A stretch of DNA of 37,222 nucleotides from positions 1 through 37,222 of the forward strand of contig JAEELJ010000017.1 in assembly GCA_016288855.1 (NCBI GenBank), in the 5' to 3' direction. This document shows, one piece after another, positions 569 to 37,026 of the stretch. Every line of letters begins with the position of its first letter. Positions within the stretch are counted from its first letter, which is position 1. This DNA comes from Acholeplasmatales bacterium. Its GTDB lineage: Bacteria; Bacillota_I; Bacilli_A; Acholeplasmatales; Anaeroplasmataceae. A program made the translations under genes and the position numbers. The notes below the pieces were generated by a model. The model saw only the letters and a program-made list of their open reading frames with translations, did not search any database and was not told where the DNA came from.

Positions 569-3196
569 TTATTCTTCTACAATTTCCTGATCACGAATGA
601 TCTTGATGCAACGGCAGTTAGCACACATTAACATCTTTAATGCATCTGCATCAAAGTATTCAGCATAGATTGTAAGCTTACGATCTAATGTGCCTCTAGC
701 TTTAATTCTTAATACATTACCGCTAGTTACAATATGTAATGACTTTAATAAATCAATTGTAATTTCATCACCATTTTCGAAATGGTTACATAATGTATCA
801 AGATATACTGTAGCTTCAACCTCTTCATCATCAAGAGGTTCACCATTAATCATTGGTAAGTATTCGTCTAAATCATCTGGCATATCATCTGGGATGCTAT
901 GAACATTGATAGAATCCTGTAGATAATCAGCTCTCATACCTAATGTAGCCATGATTGCTTCACCATTTGGAATTAATTCAGGCATGTAATTTGTAGGTTG
1001 GAAGTTTCTCTTAGGCTTAACACCACGATTTGCCATCATGATATCAACTAATTCCTTGAAGTACTTTAATGCTCTAGGAGATCTAACCTTAATCATTACT
1101 GGTACTTCAGCATATTGCTTCTTAGAAGAAACATCCTTTAAATGATACTTAGGATTTTCATCGATAAATTCAACAGGTAATGCTAAGAATACCTTAATTG
1201 ACTTACCACCTAATGCAACCTTAGAAACTAATCCTTTATATCTGAATGATTCACATCTAGATGAATTTCTACCCTTTGCACGATACATTACTAAGTAATT
1301 CTTAATTTCATTATAATATTCCTTAGTTTCATATGGAGCAAACATCATTCTAGAATTAAATCTTCTCTTAATCTTCTTAACGTTACCATCTTCATCGATA
1401 ACTTGGAAATCTTGAACAATAATTCCAGCTTCTTTTGTCTTAGGATGAATTTCTTCTACTTCTTCATCAGATTCATCATCTGCATATTCATCAGCATCGT
1501 CATCATCTTCTTCATCATCTTCTGCTTCAGCTTCTTCATCATCTTCAGCTTCTTCAGCAGGAGTTTCCTCAACTGGAGCTTCTTCAACAACTTCTTCTTC
1601 AACAACCTCTTCTTCAGGCTGTTCTTCTTCTACATTTTCTTCTTCAGCAGGAACTTCTTCAGTTTCCTCTTCAGCTACTTCCTCTTCAACAACTTCTTCA
1701 GGTTGTTCTTCTTCAACATATTCTTCTTCAGCAACTTCTTCCTCAGGTTGTTCTTCTTGAGCTTCTTCGTCACCATAATATGTCTTTAATAATTCTTCTT
1801 CCTCTTCAGAAATTGCGAATGGATCTTTTTCTTCTGGCTGTTCTTCAGCTTTTTCTTCTTCAGCTTTTTCTTCTTCGGCTTTTTCTTCTTCAGCCTTTTC
1901 TTCTTCTACTTCCTTCTTGTATTCATACTGCTTAACAACTTCAGATAAAGCATCATAATTTCTTAATCTGATAATTTGGATTAATAATGAATATAAGAAT
2001 AGTACACCTAAAACAATTGTAGCAACTAATGCCATAATGTTATCAGTTAAAACAGAGAAGTTATTCTTAATTGCAAGTGATACTACAAATGGAATAACAA
2101 ATGAAGAACCATATAACATTATAATTAATAAGCAATCAATCTTTTCAATCTTTGTAGATTTGAACTTTCTAAATAATAATGATAATACAATTAATAATAA
2201 TGAAACTACTAATACAATAATAGATCCAACCATTATGCTTGGTGTGTGACCAATAATCTTATTAACTGAATTACCAGAAATTTGGCCAACAACTGGTAAA
2301 GCTAATGCAGATAATACTACGAAACCAACTGCAACAGCTAAAGCTGCATTGAATTTATCATAAACTTGTAAGAAATAATATCTTACCTTATGGCTATTGT
2401 CGCCATAATACTTACCCTTATTATAAGTAAATCCTCTTACTATTAAACCGACTGATGCTCCAGCTGCTAATAATAAGTCAACCTTTAATGTAATTGATGC
2501 TATGCCAACAGCTGCACCTAAATAGATGAAATATGTTGTAGCAACAAATCCTATTGCTAATAATAAGTCTAATAAAGTAACATCGACATTACTATCTAAT
2601 CCAGAAATAATTAAAATTACTAATAATGCAACAACACCACCAACTACATAATACTTGTATTTAGCAAATTGACTAACAACAGGTAAATTTAAGTTTTGTG
2701 ATGCAAGAACTGTTACAGCAACTGCAAGTGCAATACCAACAACTAAAATTAAAATAGGGTTGAAAGCACCAGCTAAAGCGCCATAATAATTCTTGAAAGA
2801 TGCAGGTTCAGGATCATTAGCCTTAATAAATCTAACAACAATTTCACAAAGGAATACTGCTACAGTGCAAATAAATGGTAAATAAGCTTTCCATGAAGTC
2901 TTACCAATAATTGACATTACGATCATTACAATTGATGAAAAGAACCCTACAACTCTAATGAAATCAATAAACGAAATTTTTTCGCTCTTAAGTTTACATA
3001 AACCTAATACAGCAAAACCAATTAATAGAGCAATAGATGCTCCAAAAACTAAATTACGGATTTCTGCGCTTGAAATGATAGTCTTGTTTGCAACACTAAC
3101 ATAACCTATGCAGCAGAATGCAACTACCATAATAAGTGTCGCAAAAACTCCGTATGCCTTAAAATAGGACTTTAAAAAGTTTTCTTTTTCTGACAT
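569..3196 (-). CDS. polytopic membrane protein with acidic linker and uL15-like C-terminal domain
   Basis: An 875-residue protein with no named function. Residues 10-410 hold about twelve hydrophobic segments (for example 14-36, 48-68, 145-166, 183-200, 284-306, 320-342, 386-409). Residues 424-585 are an extremely acidic, low-complexity linker starting with KAEEE repeats. Residues 613-725 form a globular domain with the pattern ETKEYYNEIKNYL, SSRCESFRYKG, GKSIKVFLAL, KYHLKDVS and ALKYFKELVD, which I recall from uncharacterised gut-Firmicutes proteins. Residues 798-866 (GDEITIDLLKSLHIV, VLRIKARGTLDRKLTIYAEYFDADALKML) resemble the C-terminal half of ribosomal protein uL15. The linker and C-terminal domains are most likely cytosolic. 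The start follows a good SD (AGGAGAT). The gene stands alone between its own promoter and terminator. A role at the membrane-ribosome interface is speculation. Confidence 0.7.
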   Translation of the reverse strand: MSEKENFLKSYFKAYGVFATLIMVVAFCCIGYVSVANKTIISSAEIRNLVFGASIALLIGFAVLGLCKLKSEKISFIDFIRVVGFFSSIVMIVMSIIGKTSWKAYLPFICTVAVFLCEIVVRFIKANDPEPASFKNYYGALAGAFNPILILVVGIALAVAVTVLASQNLNLPVVSQFAKYKYYVVGGVVALLVILIISGLDSNVDVTLLDLLLAIGFVATTYFIYLGAAVGIASITLKVDLLLAAGASVGLIVRGFTYNKGKYYGDNSHKVRYYFLQVYDKFNAALAVAVGFVVLSALALPVVGQISGNSVNKIIGHTPSIMVGSIIVLVVSLLLIVLSLLFRKFKSTKIEKIDCLLIIMLYGSSFVIPFVVSLAIKNNFSVLTDNIMALVATIVLGVLFLYSLLIQIIRLRNYDALSEVVKQYEYKKEVEEEKAEEEKAEEEKAEEEKAEEQPEEKDPFAISEEEEELLKTYYGDEEAQEEQPEEEVAEEEYVEEEQPEEVVEEEVAEEETEEVPAEEENVEEEQPEEEVVEEEVVEEAPVEETPAEEAEDDEEAEAEDDEEDDDDADEYADDESDEEVEEIHPKTKEAGIIVQDFQVIDEDGNVKKIKRRFNSRMMFAPYETKEYYNEIKNYLVMYRAKGRNSSRCESFRYKGLVSKVALGGKSIKVFLALPVEFIDENPKYHLKDVSSKKQYAEVPVMIKVRSPRALKYFKELVDIMMANRGVKPKRNFQPTNYMPELIPNGEAIMATLGMRADYLQDSINVHSIPDDMPDDLDEYLPMINGEPLDDEEVEATVYLDTLCNHFENGDEITIDLLKSLHIVTSGNVLRIKARGTLDRKLTIYAEYFDADALKMLMCANCRCIKIIRDQEIVEE
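1842..1906 (-). repeat. 15-bp tandem repeat encoding KAEEE
   Basis: About four copies of a 15-base unit (plus-strand TTCTTCAGCTTTTTC-like) encode KAEEE repeats at residues 431-452 of the membrane protein. Copies differ at one or two positions. A tract like this can expand or shrink by slippage without breaking the frame. Confidence 0.8.
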
Positions 3197-10292: not shown

Positions 10293-11384
10293 TTATTGTT
10301 CTTGATTAGTTTCATCAAGAGTTTTATTATCATTATTTTCTTTGTTATTTGTCTTTTTTTCTTTCTTTGGTTTCTTGCCATTAACCTTAACATCATAGAT
10401 ATGATATTCAACTATAGATATAATGACAGTAATTGCTGCTGTTGCTAATGCAATACTTCCTAAAGTTATATGTATATTCTTTTGATTATCAGTTGTATTC
10501 TTTATTGCACATAAGAAGCATGCAATTGTTATAAAGAAAATATTTAACCAAAACATATAATGAGAAGCTTTAGCTTTATGAATACATGTCTTCCATAAAT
10601 ATAATATTGCAACAGTATATAATATATCAGATAAATAATATAAATAATATGGTTCAACAACATTAACTGAAAACCATGCTTCCTTATCATACATATAAAC
10701 AAATCCGCATACACCCATAAATATTGCATATAACAATTCAATTAATCCAACAATCATGATAAATCTTTTTGATGATTTAGGGAATTCAGAATTAATAATA
10801 CTAAACATTGTTACTAAAGAAACAATAAGTGTTATACCTGAAATTGAATATAAAAGTACAAAAGTAGCTTCATATGTTTTATTAGTAAACGCAAATACAT
10901 ATAATACTATAGAAAGTGAAGTTAATAATACAGATGCAAAAATCTTAATTATAAATTGTCCTAATTTAAATTCAGGATCAACATTTGATTTTGTATTTTC
11001 TTTTCTAATCTCTTTTTTTATTTCTCTCTTAGATTTTTCTTCTTTTACTTCTACTTCATCATTATCATTTTTATCTTCTATAATTTCATCTTCATCTACA
11101 TTATTAATATCATCATTATCATTATCTGAGACAAAGTTATTATCATCTACTTGATTATAACTATTATCCTCTTCTTGATTATAATAATTATCTTCTAAAG
11201 GTTTCTCTTTCTTTGTTGCAGAAAATAAATCATCCCTAGTTATTTTAGTCTTATTATAATCTTCTTCTATATCATCCCCAGGATTAAAATCATCATTTGA
11301 CACATCAAAATCTTCATTTATTGAAGTTGATTCATTATTATCAATTTGTTCATTTTCATCTTTCCTTTTAAATTTAAACATCAT
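10293..11384 (-). CDS. unknown membrane protein with acidic N-terminal region
   Basis: A 363-residue protein I do not recognise. Residues 1-135 are hydrophilic and Asp/Glu/Asn-rich low complexity. Residues 145-167, 172-197, 207-231, 247-267, 276-294 and 304-328 are six likely membrane helices. The C-terminal tail (334-363) is basic then Asn/Asp-rich. There is no signal peptide, so the acidic region is probably cytosolic. It has its own extended -10 promoter and a terminator and is divergent from the ATP-grasp gene, so it is a single-gene unit. It shares the membrane-plus-acidic-region plan, but no visible homology, with the 569-3196 product. No function is proposed. Confidence 0.7.
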   Translation of the reverse strand: MMFKFKRKDENEQIDNNESTSINEDFDVSNDDFNPGDDIEEDYNKTKITRDDLFSATKKEKPLEDNYYNQEEDNSYNQVDDNNFVSDNDNDDINNVDEDEIIEDKNDNDEVEVKEEKSKREIKKEIRKENTKSNVDPEFKLGQFIIKIFASVLLTSLSIVLYVFAFTNKTYEATFVLLYSISGITLIVSLVTMFSIINSEFPKSSKRFIMIVGLIELLYAIFMGVCGFVYMYDKEAWFSVNVVEPYYLYYLSDILYTVAILYLWKTCIHKAKASHYMFWLNIFFITIACFLCAIKNTTDNQKNIHITLGSIALATAAITVIISIVEYHIYDVKVNGKKPKKEKKTNNKENNDNKTLDETNQEQ

Positions 11385-11501: not shown

Positions 11502-12692
11502 ATGAATTTTATTTTTATAAGTCCAGCATTTCCAAAATCATATTATAATTTCTGTGATAGACTTAAGAAAAATGGAATGAATGTATTAGGAATAGGTGAT
11601 ACTCCATATAACGACTTAGATAGTAATGTAATTAATTCATTAACAGAATATTATAAGGTTTCTAATATGCAAAACTATGATGAAATGTATAGAGCTGTTG
11701 CTTATTTCGCATTTAAATATGGTAAGATTGATTTCTTAGAAAGCAATAATGAGTTTTGGTTAAGACAGGACGCAAGACTAAGAACTGATTTTAACATTTA
11801 TGGTGCTAAAACAAATGATGTATTAACATTCACATCCAAAAGCCAAATGAAGGAATTCTATAAAAAGGCAAAAGTTCCTTGTGCAAGATATAAGTTTTCA
11901 ACTAATTATCAAGAAGATTTAGATTTTATTCAAAATGTTGTATCATTCCCTGTAGTTGTAAAGCCAGATGTTGGTGTAGGTGCCGCAAGAACATATAGAA
12001 TTGAGAATGAAAATGATTTAAAGGAATTTCATAATTCAGGATTTAATGTACCTTATATAATTGAAGAATATATTTATGGTGATATTATTTCTTTTGATGG
12101 AATATGTGATAATGAATCTAATGTTGTATTTTGTGATAATGAAGTATTCCCTCCATCAATAATGGATATAGTAAATAATAATTTAGAAATATCTTATTAT
12201 GTAAATAAGGAAGTACCAAAAAAAGTATTAGATATTGGAAAAAGAGTAATTAAAGCTTTTAACATTAAATCAAGATACTTCCATTTAGAATTCTTTAGAT
12301 TAATTAATGAGAAAAAAGGATTAGGTAAAGCTGGAGATATTGTAGCCTTAGAGGTAAACATGAGACCACCTGGAGGATATACACCTGATGTAATCAATTT
12401 CTCACAGTCTGTAGATACATATCAAATATATGCTGATGTCATGGCATATAACAAAGTTGTTAATGTAGATTTCTCTCATCCAAAATATTATTGTATTTAT
12501 ATAGGTAGACGAGATAGATTTAATTATAAATATGATTATGATTACATAAAATCACTATATTCTTCTATTGTTATGCATGATAGATGCCCTAATGCATTAT
12601 CAGATGCGTTAGGAAATGAATTCTTTATAGCTAAATTTGAAAGTTATGAAGAGATGGAAGGATTTAAAGAAATGGTATTTGAAAAAAATTAA
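11502..12692 (+). CDS. ATP-grasp family carboxylate ligase of unknown substrate
   Basis: A 396-residue cytosolic protein, one of only two complete plus-strand genes here. The N-terminal Rossmann-like domain (about 1-100, MNFIFISPAFPKSYYNFCDRL, VLGIGDTPYNDL) is followed by an ATP-grasp fold: FPVVVKPDVGVGAARTYRI (about 149-167, ATP-binding Lys), YIIEEYIYGDIISFDG, and the metal-binding end ALEVNMRPPGGYTPD (about 284-298). The family joins a carboxylate to an amine or thiol with ATP. I recall close relatives in many gut bacteria as unnamed ATP-grasp proteins, with no known substrate. There is no operon partner, so context does not help. Good SD; the gene ends at a bidirectional terminator shared with the AEC transporter. 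Confidence 0.85.
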   Translation: MNFIFISPAFPKSYYNFCDRLKKNGMNVLGIGDTPYNDLDSNVINSLTEYYKVSNMQNYDEMYRAVAYFAFKYGKIDFLESNNEFWLRQDARLRTDFNIYGAKTNDVLTFTSKSQMKEFYKKAKVPCARYKFSTNYQEDLDFIQNVVSFPVVVKPDVGVGAARTYRIENENDLKEFHNSGFNVPYIIEEYIYGDIISFDGICDNESNVVFCDNEVFPPSIMDIVNNNLEISYYVNKEVPKKVLDIGKRVIKAFNIKSRYFHLEFFRLINEKKGLGKAGDIVALEVNMRPPGGYTPDVINFSQSVDTYQIYADVMAYNKVVNVDFSHPKYYCIYIGRRDRFNYKYDYDYIKSLYSSIVMHDRCPNALSDALGNEFFIAKFESYEEMEGFKEMVFEKN

Positions 12693-27568: not shown

Positions 27569-29599
27569 TTAGTCTTCGTCCTTACCTAATGAAGCTGGAG
27601 TCATAGCGAATGTATTAGAAATACCATCTCTAGAATCTTCATATGGTAACTTAGCAACTGATTCAAGAGATGCTAATGCACCATTTGAATCTCTACCCAT
27701 CATTGGGTTTGCACCTGGAGCTAGAGGTACACCTACTCTACGACCATCTGGTGTATTACCAGTCTTCTTACCATATACAACGTTAGATGTAATAGTTAAG
27801 ATTGACATAGTAGGTTCAGATCCTCTATATGTATAATGCTTTCTGATATCGTTCATGAAAGTCTTTACTAGCCATACTGCGATTTCATCTACTCTATCAT
27901 CATTGTTACCATACTTAGGGAAATCTCCTTCAGTCTTGTAATCAACAACTAAGCCTTCAGCATCACGAATAGGAGTAACCTTTGCATACTTAATAGCTGA
28001 TAATGAGTCAACTGCTACTGATAAACCAGCGATACCTGTTGCGAAATATCTATGAACATTTGAATCATGTAAAGCCATTTCGAATGCTTCATATGAATAC
28101 TTATCATGCATGTAGTGAATTGCATTTAATGTATTAACATAAATGTCAGCTAACCAATCCATCATAATTTCATACTTATGCTTAACTTCATCGAAGTTTA
28201 ATGGACCATCGCCCATGATTGGCTGATATTCAGGACCAACTTGTACAGCCTTACCTGTAACCTTGTCCTTCAATAATTCATCCTTACCACCGTTAATAGC
28301 GTATAGTAAGCACTTAGCTAAGTTAGCACGTGCACCAAAGAACTGCATTTCCTTGCCTTCTCTCATTGAAGATACACAGCAAGCAATGTTGTAGTCATCG
28401 CCCATGTAAGGTCTCATTAATTCATCTGATTCATATTGAATTGCAGAAGTTTCAATTGATAATGATGCACAATATTCCTTGAAGCCCTTAGGTAATCTCT
28501 TAGACCATAAAACTGTTAGGTTTGGTTCTGGAGCTGGACCCATGTTTTCAAGAGTATGTAATAAACGGAATGCAGTCTTTGTAACTAAAGTTCTTCCGTC
28601 TGTACCCATACCACCGATTGATTCAGTAACCCATACTGGATCTCCTGAGAATAATTCATTATAAGATTGGATACGAGCAAATCTAACCATTCTTAACTTC
28701 ATAACGAAATGGTCAATGATTTCTTGTGCTTGCTCTTCTGTTAATGTACCATTCTTTAAATCTCTTTCGAAATAGATATCTAAGAATGCATTGTTACGAC
28801 CAATTGACATAGCAGCACCATTTTGGTCCTTAACAGCTCCTAAATAACCAAAATATAAGAATTGAACAGCTTCTTGAGCATTAGTAGCTGGCTTAGATGT
28901 ATCTACACCATAAGATAATGTCATTTCCTTGAAAGCCTTTAAAGCCTTGATTTGTTCAGCAATTTCTTCTCTATCTCTTACTCTATCTGGAGTCATTTCA
29001 CCACAGATTAAAGCCTTGTCTTCTTCCTTTTTCTTGATTAAGTAATCAACACCGTATAATGCAACTCTTCTGTAGTCACCAACGATTCTACCTCTACCAT
29101 AAGTATCAGGTAAACCAGTTAAAATGTGAGCTGTACGGCAAGCTCTCATTTCTGGAGTATAAACATCGAATACACCATCGTTATGAGTCTTACGATACTT
29201 TAAGAAGAAATTCTTAATAGTTTCATCTACAGTATAACCATATTGTTCAGCAGCTTGAACAGCCATTCTGATACCACCATTTGGCATGAAAGCTCTCTTT
29301 AATGGCTTGTCAGTTTGTAAACCAACGATCTTTTCTAAATCCTTGTTAATATAACCAGGCTTATGAGAGTTAACTTGTGATGGATTATCAATATCACAAT
29401 CTAAAACTCCACCCTTTGCATGCTCTTCCTTCATTAACTCTGAAACTTCTCTCCAAAGTTCTTTAGTAGCAGCAGTTGGACCAGCTAAGAAGCTAGCATC
29501 TCCTTCATAAGGAGTATAATTTCTTTGAATGAAGTCACGTACGTCGATTTCGTCGTTACTCCACTTTCCAGGAACGAATCCTTCCCATCCTTTGTACAT
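27569..29599 (-). CDS. pflB: pyruvate formate-lyase catalytic subunit lacking the glycyl-radical domain
   Basis: A 676-residue cytosolic enzyme that splits pyruvate with CoA into acetyl-CoA and formate under anaerobiosis. It aligns with E. coli PflB from the start (WEGFVPGKW) through the active-site pair C407-C408 in [25 protein letters not shown] to [16 protein letters not shown], where it stops. E. coli PflB continues about 80 residues with the glycyl-radical domain; here that domain is a separate gene (27281-27514). The two together (753) match the usual length of about 760. The SD before this gene (AGAGGT) is weaker than the one before the small subunit. It is transcribed from a consensus-like promoter with a palindrome and a Fur/PerR-like box. 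Confidence 0.95.
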
Positions 29600-29901: not shown

Positions 29902-30234
29902 TTAAGATAAATTATATTTTTTCTTTATATCACTAATCTTTTTATCTAACCAGATTTCTAGTATTTCTTCTGGTTGAAATCCTCTACAACGTTCTTCTAA
30001 TTTATCATCATATAATATTAAAATCTGTGGTACAGATTCAACCTCATATTTAACAATTAATTCCATTGTATCAGGTGCTGCTTCTATATGATGTAGGTTA
30101 CAATCTGTTCTTTCTGATACTAATTTATGTAATATAGGCATTAATGTTAAACAGTTTGCACAAGATTCACCAGAAACTTCAACAACTGATATACCTTTTA
30201 AATATTCTTTATAATTCTTACTATTTAGCTGCAT
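29902..30234 (-). CDS. thioredoxin-like protein coupled to pflA
   Basis: A 110-residue single-domain thioredoxin-fold protein. The redox motif is SCANC (C25, C28), followed by LTLMPILHKLV. VESVPQILILYDDKL has the cis-Pro loop (VPQ) of thioredoxins and is followed by RGFQPEEILEIW. CANC is not the standard CGPC, so its potential or partner may differ. There is no signal peptide, so it is cytosolic. It overlaps pflA by 14 bases and is surely co-translated with it. A role in protecting or reducing the PFL system is suggested by context only. Confidence 0.85.
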   Translation of the reverse strand: MQLNSKNYKEYLKGISVVEVSGESCANCLTLMPILHKLVSERTDCNLHHIEAAPDTMELIVKYEVESVPQILILYDDKLEERCRGFQPEEILEIWLDKKISDIKKKYNLS

Positions 30235-30964
30235 CCTTAATCACTCCTAATAATATTTTTGCATGTCTTACTTCTTCTTTTGTAGGGATAGGTGTATCCA
30301 TTAAAGGATATTTAACACCTAACTGCTCATATTTAGGCTTTGCCATATCATGATATGGTAATACCTCAATTTTATCAACTGTCTTTAATGTATCAATAAA
30401 TTCCTTAGTTCTTTTTAAATATTCATCATTTAATGTAATTCCAGGAACTAATACATGTCTAATCCACATATGCTTACCATTATCTGATAAATATTTTGCA
30501 AATGCTAAAACATTTTTATTAGAATGGCCAGTAAGCTTTTTATGCTCATAATCATCAATATGCTTAATATCTAATAATACTAAATCAGTATATTTTAATA
30601 ATTCATTAACCTTTGCCATTATACTAGGATTGTTTTCATCAAACATTATTCCTGATGTATCTAATGCGGTATTTATTCCAGCTTCCTTAAATAATTTAAA
30701 TACCTCTGTAACAAATTCCATTTGTAGCATAGGTTCTCCACCTGTAATAGTAATACCACCATTATCACCAAAATAGCCTTTATATTTAATACCTCTATCA
30801 AATACTTCCTTTGGTGTAAATATTTGAGCATTATCCTGTGTCCAAGTATCTGGATTATGGCAATATAAGCAACGCATAGGACATCCCTTTACGAAAACAA
30901 CATATCTTATTCCAGGTCCATCTACTGTACCACCTGCAAAAAATGAATGTATTTTACCTTCCAT
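30221..30964 (-). CDS. pflA: pyruvate formate-lyase-activating enzyme
   Basis: A 247-residue radical SAM enzyme that installs the glycyl radical on pyruvate formate-lyase. The [4Fe-4S] motif is CPMRCLYC (C28, C32, C35). ITGGEPMLQMEF (SAM-binding GGE motif), DTSGI and HVLVPGITLNDEY follow. The N-terminal GGTVDGPGIRYVVFVKGCPM is diagnostic for PflA. Its partner Gly is on the separate small subunit at 27281-27514. It is transcribed apart from pflB, from an extended -10 promoter, and followed by the overlapping thioredoxin-like gene. SD AAGGAGGT is strong. Confidence 0.95.
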   Translation of the reverse strand: MEGKIHSFFAGGTVDGPGIRYVVFVKGCPMRCLYCHNPDTWTQDNAQIFTPKEVFDRGIKYKGYFGDNGGITITGGEPMLQMEFVTEVFKLFKEAGINTALDTSGIMFDENNPSIMAKVNELLKYTDLVLLDIKHIDDYEHKKLTGHSNKNVLAFAKYLSDNGKHMWIRHVLVPGITLNDEYLKRTKEFIDTLKTVDKIEVLPYHDMAKPKYEQLGVKYPLMDTPIPTKEEVRHAKILLGVIKDAAK

Positions 30965-31042: not shown

Positions 31043-31074
31043 TTTTTCAAAAAAAATAAGGCCGGAGCCTTATT
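31043..31074 (-). terminator. terminator of the glyS-dnaG-rpoD-trmK operon
   Basis: AATAAGGC (31055-31062) and GCCTTATT (31067-31074) form an 8-bp stem with a CGGA loop, followed on the minus strand by TTTTTTTGAAAAACG. The stem overlaps the stop codon of the fusion gene. Confidence 0.9.
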
Positions 31075-32470
31075 TTAATTTATATTCTAACCACTTTAAA
31101 GAATATGAAACCCAATCTTCTACATATGGAATAATTTTTTCTTCATTTCCCTGTGCTGATTCAATATTTGCAACAGAAAGACCATGAGGCCCTAATGGGA
31201 ATAAATGATATTCAGCATTTAGATTATGTTTTTTATATGCTTCTAATAATAATAAAGAATTCATTACATTAACTGATGAATCAGTAAATGTGCCCCATAA
31301 GAATAAATCAGGCATTGAATCGTCAATTTGAGTTTCTAGTGACAAATAATTCATTAATTTAGGATCACCATATTTTTCAAATAAAATATGCTCAAAAGAT
31401 CCTTTATGAGAATATCTTTCATCACTTGTAACAACAGGATATGCAAGCATTAATAAATCACATCTTCTAATATTATAATCTTTATTATGACAATTAACCT
31501 CAAGCATACAATGACCACCAGCACTAAATCCTAAGCCAATCAGTTTAGAAACGTGATAATCATCCTGAATAAGACCAATAACATATGCTAGATAGCTTTG
31601 TGGTAATGGATAAGCTTCATCTTTAGTCTCTCTATAATTAACTATAACTACATGATAACCCTTTTCATGATACTTCTTCATTACAGGCTCTTCTTCTCTA
31701 GGGGATGTATATTGGTATCCACCACCTGCAGAAATAATTATTGTTGGTCTTGTTTCATCATCAATCCAGAAAGTTCTATAATAATTAGATGTTCCATTAA
31801 TATATTCCTTTTCATTAAAGGATATACCAATAATTTCATTTAATTCACTAATATTTCTTTCTAAATTCTTCTTTTTCATAGGATCTTTAATTTCTGATAA
31901 TCCTTTTGATAAAACATTAATTAAAGCCTCATAATGCTTAATAAAAGCTTCAGGCTTATTAGCTAAAAGCATTGGGCCATATTTGATTTCTTTTTCTGAA
32001 TAATCACATATACCATTCTTAAATACTATTATTTCATAATATTTACCATTATCAGTAATAGCATATTCCTTAGAAATCATAAATCCATTATCAGTTAGAT
32101 ATTTTCTTACGATATCAGAATCCTTATTAGCTTCAACAATGATTTTTTTACCATATATTTTATTATATGATTCTCTTAAGATATCTCTTATTAAGCTTCC
32201 ACCCATTCCAGCAACAATAACTGTATCAAATTCATCAATAATTTCTTTCAATCCATCAGATAATACAGTTTTTATTTTATCTTCTAAATGATTTTCTATA
32301 ATGCTTTCTTGCGCAGATTTTAATGGGCCTTCGTTAATATCACATGCGATTGCAGACTCACAGCCATAATATTTTACAGCTCTAATTGAAGCATATGCAT
32401 GATCACATCCTACGTCTACAACGCATTTCGAGCCTTTCGCAAGGCTCGCAATTAAATCTATTCTATCCAT
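31070..32470 (-). CDS. TrmK-like tRNA methyltransferase fused to an alpha/beta hydrolase
   Basis: A 466-residue two-domain protein. Residues 1-218 match TrmK, which methylates N1 of A22 in tRNA: SAM-binding VVDVGCDHAYASIRAV (17-32), ACDINEGPLKSA (42-53), TVIVAGMGGSLIRDIL (83-98), then the C-terminal coiled-coil (about 175-215). Residues 232-466 are an esterase-type alpha/beta hydrolase: oxyanion region AGGG (248-251), nucleophile elbow GLGFSAGG (312-319, Ser316), and acid and base at Asp397 (WGTFTDSSV) and His429 (GPHGLS), so the triad looks intact. The frame is continuous through the linker. In Bacillus subtilis trmK also lies downstream of sigA, but is not fused. It starts 1 base after the rpoD stop. 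No fusion of this kind is known to me; the hydrolase substrate is unknown. Confidence 0.85.
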   Translation of the reverse strand: MDRIDLIASLAKGSKCVVDVGCDHAYASIRAVKYYGCESAIACDINEGPLKSAQESIIENHLEDKIKTVLSDGLKEIIDEFDTVIVAGMGGSLIRDILRESYNKIYGKKIIVEANKDSDIVRKYLTDNGFMISKEYAITDNGKYYEIIVFKNGICDYSEKEIKYGPMLLANKPEAFIKHYEALINVLSKGLSEIKDPMKKKNLERNISELNEIIGISFNEKEYINGTSNYYRTFWIDDETRPTIIISAGGGYQYTSPREEEPVMKKYHEKGYHVVIVNYRETKDEAYPLPQSYLAYVIGLIQDDYHVSKLIGLGFSAGGHCMLEVNCHNKDYNIRRCDLLMLAYPVVTSDERYSHKGSFEHILFEKYGDPKLMNYLSLETQIDDSMPDLFLWGTFTDSSVNVMNSLLLLEAYKKHNLNAEYHLFPLGPHGLSVANIESAQGNEEKIIPYVEDWVSYSLKWLEYKLK

Positions 32471-32471
32471 T

Positions 32472-33707
32472 TTAGTCGTTATTAATAAAATCCTTTAATT
32501 TTTTTGACTTAGAAGGATGCTTTAACTTTCTAATGGCTTTTGCTTCAATCTGACGGATACGTTCACGTGTAACATTAAATTCCTTACCAACTTCTTCAAG
32601 AGTATGAGGTCTTGCTTCAATTCCATCATAATCAGGATCGCCTTCCTTAGGAATACCAAATCTTAAACGAATAACCTTTTGTTCACGATCTGTTAAAGTT
32701 CCTAAAACCTCATCAATTTCCTTACGAAGCTTAATCTTTTCAGTATATTCATATGGATCTAGTGCATGTGGATCTGAAATGAAATCTCCTAAGCAAGAAT
32801 CCTCTTCTTCACCAACTGGATTTTCAAGTGAAATTGGTTCTAATGCAATACGTTGAATTTGTTGAACCTTTTCAACAGAAATACCCATACGTTCAGCAAC
32901 CTCTTCTGGAGTTGCTTCTCTTGATAATTCTTGTACTAATTGACGTTGTACTCTTACAAGCTTATTAATTGTTTCAACCATATGAACTGGGATACGAATT
33001 GTTCTTGCTTGGTCAGCAACAGCTCTTGTAATAGCCTGTCTGATCCACCATGTTGCATATGTAGAGAACTTAAATCCTCTTTCTGGATCAAACTTATCAA
33101 CAGCCTTAATTAAACCCATGTTACCTTCTTGAATTAAATCAAGGAATGGTAAGCCTCTATTCATATATTTCTTTGCGATAGAAACAACTAAACGTAGGTT
33201 AGCATTGATTAATTTTTCTTTTGCAAATTCAGCTGCAGCAATCTTGCTTTCTAATGCTTCGAATTCTTCAGCAGAAATATTTGCTTGCTTTTCAGAATCT
33301 GCTTCAATAGCTAATTTCTTTTCTAATGCAGCACGACCTTCAACAACAAGATTTGCAAATCTTGTTTCATCATCTAATGATAATAACGCAACTTTACCAA
33401 TATCCTTAAGATACATTCTTACTGGATCATCAACTTTAATTGAAGATGGTAATACGTCGTATGAAGTAATATCTACTTCTTCAACAGCATCTAATGCTGT
33501 AGGACCGTCATCAATTTCTTCTTCCTCTTCTTGAGATGGCATAACGTCAATACCATTCTTTTCTAATTCAGCTTCAATCTTATCATACTCATCAGTATCA
33601 TCTGTATAATATTGTGCAATGTCCTTTTCGTAGATGACATTATCATTTTTCTTACCAGTTTCAATTAACTGATTAAGTACTTCATTGAAATCAATTTGCT
33701 TTTCCAT
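32472..33707 (-). CDS. rpoD: primary sigma factor (SigA/RpoD)
   Basis: A 411-residue housekeeping sigma-70. Region 1.1-like N terminus (about 1-85, acidic), region 1.2 ([16 protein letters not shown], from about 90), region 2 with [17 protein letters not shown] (2.3-2.4), region 3 ([11 protein letters not shown]) and region 4.2 helix-turn-helix [28 protein letters not shown]. All core promoter-contact residues appear present, in line with the TTGACA/TATAAT boxes found in this window. It lies 13 bases after dnaG and 1 base before the TrmK fusion, in the classic Firmicutes dnaG-sigA order. Confidence 0.97.
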
Positions 33708-33720
33708 TGCAATAATCCTC

Positions 33721-35574
33721 CTAGTTGCGTTTCTTTAACTTAGTTTCAAGTGAATGTTCTTGCTTTTTGTAAGATTGCATTCTTTGCGCTAATAACAATT
33801 TTTGTTTAGCATCAATTGCAGAATTCATCATAGCTCTTGTTTGGCTCATCTTTCCTTTGATAGAGACAATCATTAGTTTGGTAACGCACTTTTCTATTTC
33901 TTCATCATTCATCATGTTTTCAGTCCAATTTTTTCTTTTATATGCGCCAATATCTAAATATAATTTTCCCTCATCTTCAGAATTTAATAGCTTAACAAAA
34001 TATCCTTCAATGAATTCATCATATGTAACATAATACTCATTTACTAATTTCATCCATAGCTTTTGTCCTGCTGGAGAAAAGCCATCCATAAAATTCCCAA
34101 TTTCTTTATCTATTCTTAAAGCGATATCCTTACCTTGTAATCCAAGAAATATTAAATCTGGCTCACAAATGTCCTTCCATATTTTATGTTTAACATTTTG
34201 TGGTATGATATCTTCTCTAAATTCTTCTTTTTTAACATTGCTTGGTTTTACAATGTTATAGCCTTGATTTATTGCATGTGTCTGTTCAAATGCAATAAAA
34301 TCCTTCATTACAGCTTCATAAGATGAACCTAATTTAGTAGCTAGTTTTTTAATATAATCTTCTCTTAAAATTGCACTAGATTCTCCTAATACATTAGAAA
34401 ATATTATATTTTTAACTTCATTTAAGCCTTCTAAATCATTTAAGTCTCTACCTATAAATGCTGTATCAAACTTATATTGTAATGGATCTATTATATTATT
34501 ATCAAAATAATCTAGATAACCATCTTGACCATAATTCTTTATATATTCATCTGGGTCCATACCTTTTGGTAATAGGCATAAATGAACAACAAATCCATTA
34601 TTTTTAAACATATCAATTGCACGAAGAGATGCATGAACACCGGCAGAGTCACCATCATAACAAATTATTGCATGATTAGTATATTTAGCCATTATTTTAA
34701 TTTGGTCATTTGTTAGTGCAGTACCTAGTGTACAAACAGCTTCTTTAATACCAGCTCTATAGGATGCTAAAACATCCATCTGACCTTCATGTAATACAAT
34801 ACGTTTTTTTCTATTTATTTCTATTTTAGCTTTATTAAGGTTAAAGATTGTTTCACCCTTTTTAAATATCACTGTTTCACGTGAATTTAAATATTTAGGT
34901 TGACCTTTTGCTTTATCCTCATCTCTATATATTCTTCCAGAGAATGCTACTGGATTATCATATTCATCAAATATAGGGAACATTATTCTATTTGAGAAAA
35001 TATCATAATATCCATTATCATTTTTATCAATTAGTCCAACATCAGCTATATCAAGCTCCATGAATCCTAATTTCTTTAATACACTATATAGAATATCTCC
35101 AATTTGAGGAGCTAAACCAATTTTAAACTCTTTTATAAGATTTTCATCAAGACCACGTTTAATTAAATAATCTTTAGCACGTCTTCCATCTTCAGAGAAT
35201 TCTAAATTCTTTTGATAGAATTCAACTGCCTTAGACATTATTTCATAATACTTTTTTAAATGATCTGTTTTAGAATTAGTTCTAATTTTATATTCTAATC
35301 CATTGAATTGATATAATTCCTTAATAGCTTCTTGGTATGGAATATTATGGTACTTCATTAGGAAGCCTACCGCATTTCCTGAAGCACCACATCCAAAGCA
35401 TTTAAATATTTTTTTCTCAGGTGAGACCATAAAGGATGGAGTCTTTTCATTATGGAAAGGACATACACCTTTAAAATCTTTACCTTGTTTTTCCAAAGGA
35501 ACATATTTAGATATCAAAGAAACTATATCCGTTGATTCAATTACATCATCTTGGGAAGAAACCAAGGTATTCAC
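33721..35574 (-). CDS. dnaG: DNA primase
   Basis: A 617-residue primase that makes RNA primers at the replication fork. The N-terminal zinc ribbon is [11 protein letters not shown] with CFGCG (CHC2 type, about 40-65). The TOPRIM catalytic core has [21 protein letters not shown] and CYDGDSAG with the metal-binding acidic residues. The C-terminal helicase-binding domain is about 450-617. Length is normal. It lies 19 bases after glyS and 13 bases before rpoD. Confidence 0.96.
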
Positions 35575-35593: not shown

Positions 35594-36985
35594 TTAGAAT
35601 TCTAATTTAGATTCAATAAACTTAATTGCATCTTCAACTGATAAAGTCTGTTGCTCCATAGTATCACGGTCACGAACAGTTACAGTTCCGTTTGCAATAG
35701 TATTATCATCTACACAGATACAATATGGTGTACCAATTGCATCTTGTCTTCTATAACGCTTACCAATGTTTGCAGTCTCATCATATACTGTTGAGAAATG
35801 TCTATTGAATTCATCAAAAATTTCTTCTGCCTTTTCACCATGGCTCTTTTTGATTAATGGTAATACAGCAGCCTTATATGGTGCTAAAGCTGGTGATAAA
35901 CGTAATACAGTTCTTTCAGATACCTTACCATCCTCAGAAGTATTCTTTTCAACATCATAAGCACTGAATAAAACTGTTAATAGCATTCTTTCAACACCAA
36001 CTGATGGTTCTACAACATATGGAATATATCTTGTATTAGTTTCAGGATCTAAATATGTTAAATCCTTTCCTGAATGTTCTTGATGCTGAGTTAAGTCATA
36101 TGATGTACGAGATGCAATACCCCATAATTCACCAAATCCCCAAGGGAATTCGAATTCGATATCTGTTGTAGCATTAGAATAGAATGATAATTCCTTTGCT
36201 TCATGATCTCTATATCTTAGCTTTGATTCATCAACACCAATAGAAACTAAGAAATCCCAACAATATTTTCTCCAATGCTTGAACCAATCCATTTCAGTTC
36301 CTGGTACACAGAAGAATTCAAGCTCCATTTGTTCGAATTCTCTTGTACGGAAAATGAAATTACCTGGAGTGATTTCATTTCTAAATGACTTACCAATTTG
36401 ACCTACACCAAATGGAAGCTTTCTTCTTGTTGTTCTTTGAATGTTTTTAAAGTTAACAAATATACCTTGTGCAGTTTCAGGACGTAGATAAACTTCATTC
36501 TTAGCATCCTCTACTACACCTTGGAAAGTCTTAAACATTAAATTGAATTTTCTAATATCTGTATAATCTAAGGCTCCACATACAGGACAAACAACATTAT
36601 TATCCTTCAAGTACTGAGTTAATTCTTCATTAGACATACCGTCTCCTGTGATTTCACCATGAGTGAAATCTTCAATTAACTTATCAGCTCTAAAACGAGA
36701 ATGGCACTTCTTACAGTCAACTAGTGGATCTGAGAATGAACCAATATGTCCTGATGCAACCCAAACTTCCTTATTCATAAGAATTGCAGCATCAAGTCCA
36801 ACATTTAACTTATTCTGCTTAACGAACTTTTTCCACCAAGCCTGCTTAATATTATTTTTAAGTTCAACTCCTAAAGGACCATAGTCCCAAGCGTTTGCTA
36901 AACCGCCATAAATTTCAGAACCAGGGAATACAAATCCTTGTTCCTTTAAGAAAGAAACTAATTCTTCAAGTGTTATTTTCTGCAT
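35594..36985 (-). CDS. glyS: glycyl-tRNA synthetase, single-chain type
   Basis: A class II synthetase of the one-chain (alpha2) type, not the alpha2-beta2 type. Motifs: [23 protein letters not shown] near the N terminus, [21 protein letters not shown] (motif 2), [10 protein letters not shown] (motif 3) and the C-terminal anticodon-binding domain (about 365-460). A zinc-binding set (CKKCH, CPVCG) lies in the insertion domain. I place the start at [13 protein letters not shown] (36985, 463 residues): SD GGAGG is 8 bases upstream. A GTG 15 bases upstream in frame overlaps that SD. First gene of the glyS-dnaG-rpoD-trmK operon. Confidence 0.96.
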
Positions 36986-37026
36986 ATGTAAAACCTCCAC
37001 GCTTAAACACTAAATCGCATTTTATT

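Follow-up and report, generated by a model that had tools for sequence, protein, structure and literature searches.

Here we report that, in a 37,222-nucleotide contig of an Acholeplasmatales bacterium (hereafter the window), the gene for the tRNA methyltransferase TrmK runs without interruption into a gene for an alpha/beta hydrolase, a genuine fusion between two known families of enzymes that appears not to have been described before and is so far confined to one bacterial family. The best explanation, to which we assign a probability of about 0.74, is that neighbouring genes have fused repeatedly to yield a bifunctional protein with independent activities. The fused gene and its upstream neighbours are arranged as follows.

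31070..32470, minus strand: fused gene, TrmK plus alpha/beta hydrolase, one frame of 466 aa (open reading frame list and translation; same fused frame in 24 further genomes of the family)
32472..33707, minus strand: sigA (rpoD), the upstream neighbour of the fusion (open reading frame list, synteny)
33721..35574, minus strand: dnaG (open reading frame list and synteny in relatives)
35594..37000, minus strand: glyS, glycyl-tRNA synthetase (open reading frame list and synteny in relatives)

The open reading frame list and the translation gave, for 31070-32470 on the minus strand, a frame of 466 codons with an ATG start, a TAA stop and no internal stops, and both domain profiles matched within it, in agreement with the preliminary description of this DNA, which had read a single unbroken frame joining a TrmK-like part to an alpha/beta hydrolase. 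That description had also placed the fusion in the rpoD operon, and sigA indeed lies directly upstream, with its stop codon 1 nt before the ATG of the fusion; the order at the locus is glyS-dnaG-sigA, followed by the fused trmK-esterase.

The window carries one sigA, and the relatives with two adjacent sigA-like genes include L006, L013, L015, L034, L036, L043, L045, L048, L063 and L068. In six fused genomes of the window's genus, g1 (G002, G008, G009, G010, G017 and G026), the sigA copy that touches trmK is markedly divergent, scoring approximately 220-280 bits versus 530-570, which suggests that the primary sigma factor was duplicated inside its own operon in those relatives.

The N-terminal half of the fused protein comprises two parts.

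31997..32470, minus strand: TrmK Rossmann methyltransferase domain, residues 1-158 (PF04816, invariant residues, structural matches)
31832..31996, minus strand: TrmK C-terminal helical part, residues 159-213 (helices in the model; TrmK chains align over residues 1-215)

Residues 17-213 matched the Pfam TrmK profile PF04816 (E 1.4e-45; 155.8 bits against a curated cut-off of 27), solved TrmK proteins matched residues 3-214 of the fusion by sequence, and structure comparison of this half returned 3ku1, 3kr9, 7o4o and 6q56 at Z 27-28 (TrmK of S. pneumoniae, S. agalactiae, S. aureus and B. subtilis). The C-terminal part was modelled as helices at residues 159-164, 166-171, 174-191 and 197-213. The SAM-binding and catalytic motifs read D19-x-G21-x-D23-H24-A-Y and G88-M-G90-G, with D19, G21, D23, H24, G88 and G90 invariant in all 53 family rows; D23, as read from the aligned DHAY motif, is the equivalent of S. 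aureus Asp26, the proposed general base (PMC9190014). Inspection of the host genome revealed A22 opposite a non-U13 in the tRNAs for Glu, Leu, Cys, His, Tyr, Gln and Ser. The same tRNAs are among those methylated by G. stearothermophilus TrmK (PMC9801127), and the candidates include most known TrmK substrates. The motifs and the candidate substrates suggest that the N-terminal half would function as an ordinary TrmK, methylating A22 at N1 in the enzyme's customary subset of tRNAs.

The C-terminal half comprises the hydrolase and its catalytic residues.

31073..31786, minus strand: alpha/beta hydrolase domain, residues 229-466, acetyl-ester/xylan-esterase-like (PF20434; sequence and structure matches to solved esterases)
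31523..31525, minus strand: nucleophile Ser316 in G-F-S-A-G (invariant, 50/50)
31280..31282, minus strand: acid Asp397 (invariant, 50/50)
31184..31186, minus strand: base His429 (invariant, 50/50)

Residues 239-330 matched the BD-FAE profile PF20434 (E 6e-8; 32.8 bits against a cut-off of 26.8), residues 237-462 matched esterase models, and solved esterases matched residues 238-466 (3hxk, 6a6o, 4q3k and 4bzw by sequence). Structure comparison placed the same four entries at Z 31.0-34.1, the best being 6a6o (Z 34.1), an acetyl ester-xyloside (bifunctional) hydrolase of Caldicellulosiruptor lactoaceticus; together with BTAxe1 (7dwc), the closest structures, which include YeeB (3hxk), MGS-M1 (4q3k) and Cest-2923 (4bzw), span Z 30-34. 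The Ser316-Asp397-His429 triad had been described as intact, and the residues were correctly identified: S316, D397 and H429, together with the oxyanion glycines G249 and G250, are invariant in all 50 related hydrolase rows. A dead hydrolase is ruled out by the invariant triad and the low dN/dS given below. The NCBIfam equivalog cut-offs were missed for lp_1002 arylesterase (96 of 300 bits), AxeA1 (58 of 700) and PaeX (57.5 of 550). Judging from BD-FAE (PMC8165983) and from the titles of the matched structure entries, relatives of the hydrolase act on acetyl and feruloyl sugar esters. By its fold, triad and relatives, the C-terminal half would be a cytosolic serine esterase of the acetyl-sugar/xylan-esterase type, in which Ser316-Asp397-His429 would cleave short acyl esters, a substrate class drawn solely from distant relatives at 20-33% identity.

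The two halves are joined by a short linker.

31787..31831, minus strand: linker, residues 214-228 (pLDDT dip to 71; junction comparison)

The preliminary boundary, with TrmK at residues 1-218 and the hydrolase at 232-466, proved slightly off: the TrmK helices end at approximately residue 213, the linker spans approximately 214-228 and the hydrolase approximately 229-466. An AlphaFold model computed with 73 family sequences reached a mean pLDDT of 95.9 and a pTM of 0.71, with its sole clear dip (71) at the linker, at about residues 211-220, and can be read as two well-folded domains whose placement relative to each other is not fixed. Comparison of the junctions revealed that N219 occupies the place of the initiator methionine of the hydrolase in relatives, the window having AAT GAA AAG where relatives have ATG GAA AAG; G004, the closest relative at 86% identity, also has AAT (Asn) at the old hydrolase start codon. 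No in-frame start with a ribosome site was found near the junction in the window's species or in G004, so that in the window's species, which has no usable hydrolase start, the esterase can arise only within the fusion. There, loss of the esterase start codon has made the fusion obligatory; many fused proteins elsewhere retain the old initiator methionine of the hydrolase. Between G000 and G004, dN/dS was 0.11 for TrmK, 0.13 for the linker and 0.14 for the hydrolase, indicating that the whole chain is under purifying selection.

The search of domain architectures proposed in the preliminary description covered 55 genomes of the window's family, f1, which consists of uncultured gut and rumen bacteria, and the junction was read in each genome with a match. 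The fused frame was found in 25 of the 55 genomes (14 in g1, 7 in g4 and 4 in g6), and another 25 carried trmK and the hydrolase as separate genes on the same strand and in unchanged order, almost all of them only a few codons apart (the gap in G012 is approximately 870 bases). Three genomes (G018, G019 and G022) had trmK with no hydrolase behind it; the G022 contig ends 572 bases downstream of trmK, and the sole hydrolase match in G018 is weak and unrelated. The last two, both incomplete, gave no match, so that, of the 53 family genomes with a match, 50 have the hydrolase fused to trmK or next to it. As grounds for abandoning the fusion, a missed stop or frameshift near residue 220 and parts that are always separate in relatives had been named beforehand; neither holds, since the same join recurs in 25 genomes, and fused and separate arrangements are found in 25 genomes each, the window's own counted among the former. 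Outside the family, the fusion was not found in 160 genomes of the order or in 296 sampled genomes of the class (the sets overlap in part), and where both halves were reported they lay on different contigs or far apart. The literature searched contained no paper describing a TrmK-hydrolase pairing or TrmK fused to another enzyme.

To trace the origin of the fusion, we used a tree of both domains from which the junction columns were left out. The tree required six changes between the fused and separate states; placing all fused rows in one clade was rejected (p-AU 2.9e-5), and so was a clade uniting the fused rows of g1 with those of g6 (p-AU 1.3e-29). Joining or parting of trmK and the esterase gene has occurred several times in the family. 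Because the genera outside g1, g4 and g6 (g2, g3, g5 and g7) are all unfused, we infer that separate genes were probably ancestral and were then fused several times, possibly with a re-splitting within g6. Six g6 genomes have both genes in the same frame, with only the trmK stop and one further codon ahead of the hydrolase ATG (...EG*xMEK...), and their fused g6 relatives read ...EG-K-N-MEK or EG-Q-N-MEK, with AAA (Lys) or CAG (Gln) where TAA/TAG stands. Other genera have the separate genes in different frames, so that fusion there required a change of frame. With the trmK stop and the esterase start a few codons apart, single-base or small frame changes could join or part the genes, and two neighbouring genes of a glyS-dnaG-sigA-trmK-esterase operon would have become one real two-domain protein.

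The two activities of this protein are most likely biochemically independent, and the fusion would mainly fix co-expression or be near neutral. Of the functions considered in the preliminary description, shared expression fits best, and the idea that the hydrolase strips tRNA of an ester or acyl group found no support, with several observations speaking against it. Families of the order other than f1 have the hydrolase beside genes for a GH30 endo-1,6-beta-glucanase and an S51 peptidase, beside dnaE or beside tuf (the last in one f3 genome); one such context places it between a VTT membrane protein and the S51 peptidase/GH30 glucanase group. These varied contexts suggest that the hydrolase generally goes with its host operon, be it a housekeeping or a sugar operon. 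In family f5 (L042, L044 and L077), genes of this hydrolase family overlap the end of dnaE, which encodes DNA polymerase III alpha and was identified by profile in L042 and by size in L044 and L077. Synteny across nearly the whole of the window's family and repeated fusion exceed what a purely neutral passenger would need, and some functional tie is conceivable.

One alternative is a fusion selected as an expression device, which would bind the esterase 1:1 to the TrmK/sigA translation unit, with an internal start adding free esterase in some genera. We found that five of the seven g4 fusions have a perfect GGAGG 5 nt before an in-frame ATG and that a sixth has GGAG at 6 nt, as would suit such a device; free esterase may also be made from these g4 genes, to judge by the signals, giving two products per gene. 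The hydrolase is likewise packed behind housekeeping genes elsewhere, as in the dnaE overlap of f5 and next to tuf in one f3 genome. However, the hydrolase has been dropped altogether in three genomes, and the internal start is gone in the window's species, G002, G026 and G004, and we consider a selected device unlikely, although it is the alternative that survives best. The g4 fused genes with an internal GGAG(G) and ATG are those of G029, G035, G061, G062, G065 and G066 (L017, L022, L064, L061, L066 and L067).

Very unlikely, in our estimate, is a hydrolase that acts on tRNA or on an aminoacyl or acyl ester near TrmK, for example a trans-editing deacylase coupled to A22 methylation. The adjacency or fusion in nearly all matched family genomes and the more than one origin of the fusion speak for such a link, but TrmK is kept without any hydrolase in the three genomes named above, half of the family is unfused, and the hydrolase is far from trmK in other families of the order and in sampled genomes of the class. 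The nearest relatives of the hydrolase are acetyl-sugar esterases, its nearest structures being of the acetyl-ester/xylan type, and the hydrolase half is acidic (net charge -11 and pI 5.3 in the window; mean charge -6 in fused rows), with no charge sign of an RNA-binding surface. Moreover, TrmK has been modelled on the tRNA core and not on the acceptor/CCA end (PMC9801127), so that an ester at the CCA end would not be presented to the hydrolase. We give still less credence to a bifunctional tRNA enzyme in which the TrmK-borne esterase strips an acyl group from tRNA, aminoacyl-tRNA or a TrmK-linked ligand; if true, TrmK-borne deacylation would couple A22 methylation to a hydrolytic quality-control step.

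Finally, a missed stop or frameshift in metagenome assembly that hides two real genes is scarcely credible and was rejected: the window does come from a fragmented draft genome of 88 contigs and many relatives do have two genes, but 25 genomes are fused, including G004, with a conserved linker under purifying selection, some fused frames sit on long contigs (386 kb in G031 and 258 kb in G063), and the window junction offers no usable start for a separate hydrolase.

A short way downstream of the fused gene, the window also carries a split pyruvate formate-lyase (PFL).

27569-29599, minus strand: pyruvate formate-lyase body without the glycyl-radical C-terminus, 676 aa
27284-27514, minus strand: stand-alone glycyl-radical protein, 77 aa, with an RVSGYAV radical loop

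Together, the PFL body and the 77-aa piece resemble a glycyl radical enzyme that is naturally in two parts. The free piece occurs almost throughout the family at 79-94% identity, with 2-3 copies in G007, G028, G032 and G034, whereas PFL is one normal chain of approximately 750-790 aa in G018 and G019 and in the order outside the family. E. coli possesses YfiD/GrcA, a free spare part that bears the glycyl radical, alongside an intact PFL (PMC8683613). There, YfiD also allows a PFL truncated at residue 695 to be activated, which makes a natural two-part enzyme mechanistically plausible; no description of such a naturally split PFL was found in the literature searched. At 29902-30234 (minus strand), the window encodes a thioredoxin-like protein of 110 aa with a CANC motif, which may assist the split PFL. 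Its gene overlaps that of the PFL activase (30221-30964) and is also syntenic in relatives. Three sizeable frames of the window had no Pfam match at 1e-10: 569-3196 (minus strand, 875 aa), 10293-11384 (minus strand, 363 aa) and 11502-12692 (plus strand, 396 aa).

Returning to repeated fusion with independent activities as the preferred reading, the family provides a natural series in which two neighbouring housekeeping genes switch between the fused and the separate state through a change as small as one stop codon. The series has intermediates (an in-frame single stop, a retained internal start and a lost start), and it lends itself to testing whether fusions of this kind are neutral or selected. 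It also urges caution in reading function from fusion, the 'Rosetta stone' inference being weakened here by loss of the hydrolase and by its other genomic contexts.

Compared with acetyl-sugar/xylan-esterase-like hydrolases (6a6o, 3hxk, 4q3k, 4bzw, 7dwc and BD-FAE), the C-terminal half shares the fold, the Ser-Asp-His triad and the G-G oxyanion motif, and an added lid domain is absent; unlike them, it is fused behind a tRNA methyltransferase, has only 20-33% identity to them and falls below the NCBIfam equivalog cut-offs. In Bacillus, the usual gene partner downstream of trmK is NIF3/YqfO. In contrast to that TrmK-NIF3 pair, no NIF3 stands beside or is fused to trmK here, and a search, whose control was positive in 10 of 14 genomes, found NIF3/DUF34 absent from G000 and 59 relatives. 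The hydrolase as a one-for-one replacement of NIF3 is not indicated, since NIF3 is missing order-wide in the relatives searched, including families whose hydrolase is away from trmK. With the known TrmK proteins (B. subtilis 6q56, S. aureus 7o4m-o and S. pneumoniae 3kr9/3ku1), the N-terminal half shares the whole fold, including the C-terminal helices, the D-x-G-x-D-H-A-Y and G-M-G-G motifs, the place behind sigA and the A22-bearing tRNAs in the genome; unlike any of these, the window protein runs on into a second enzyme.
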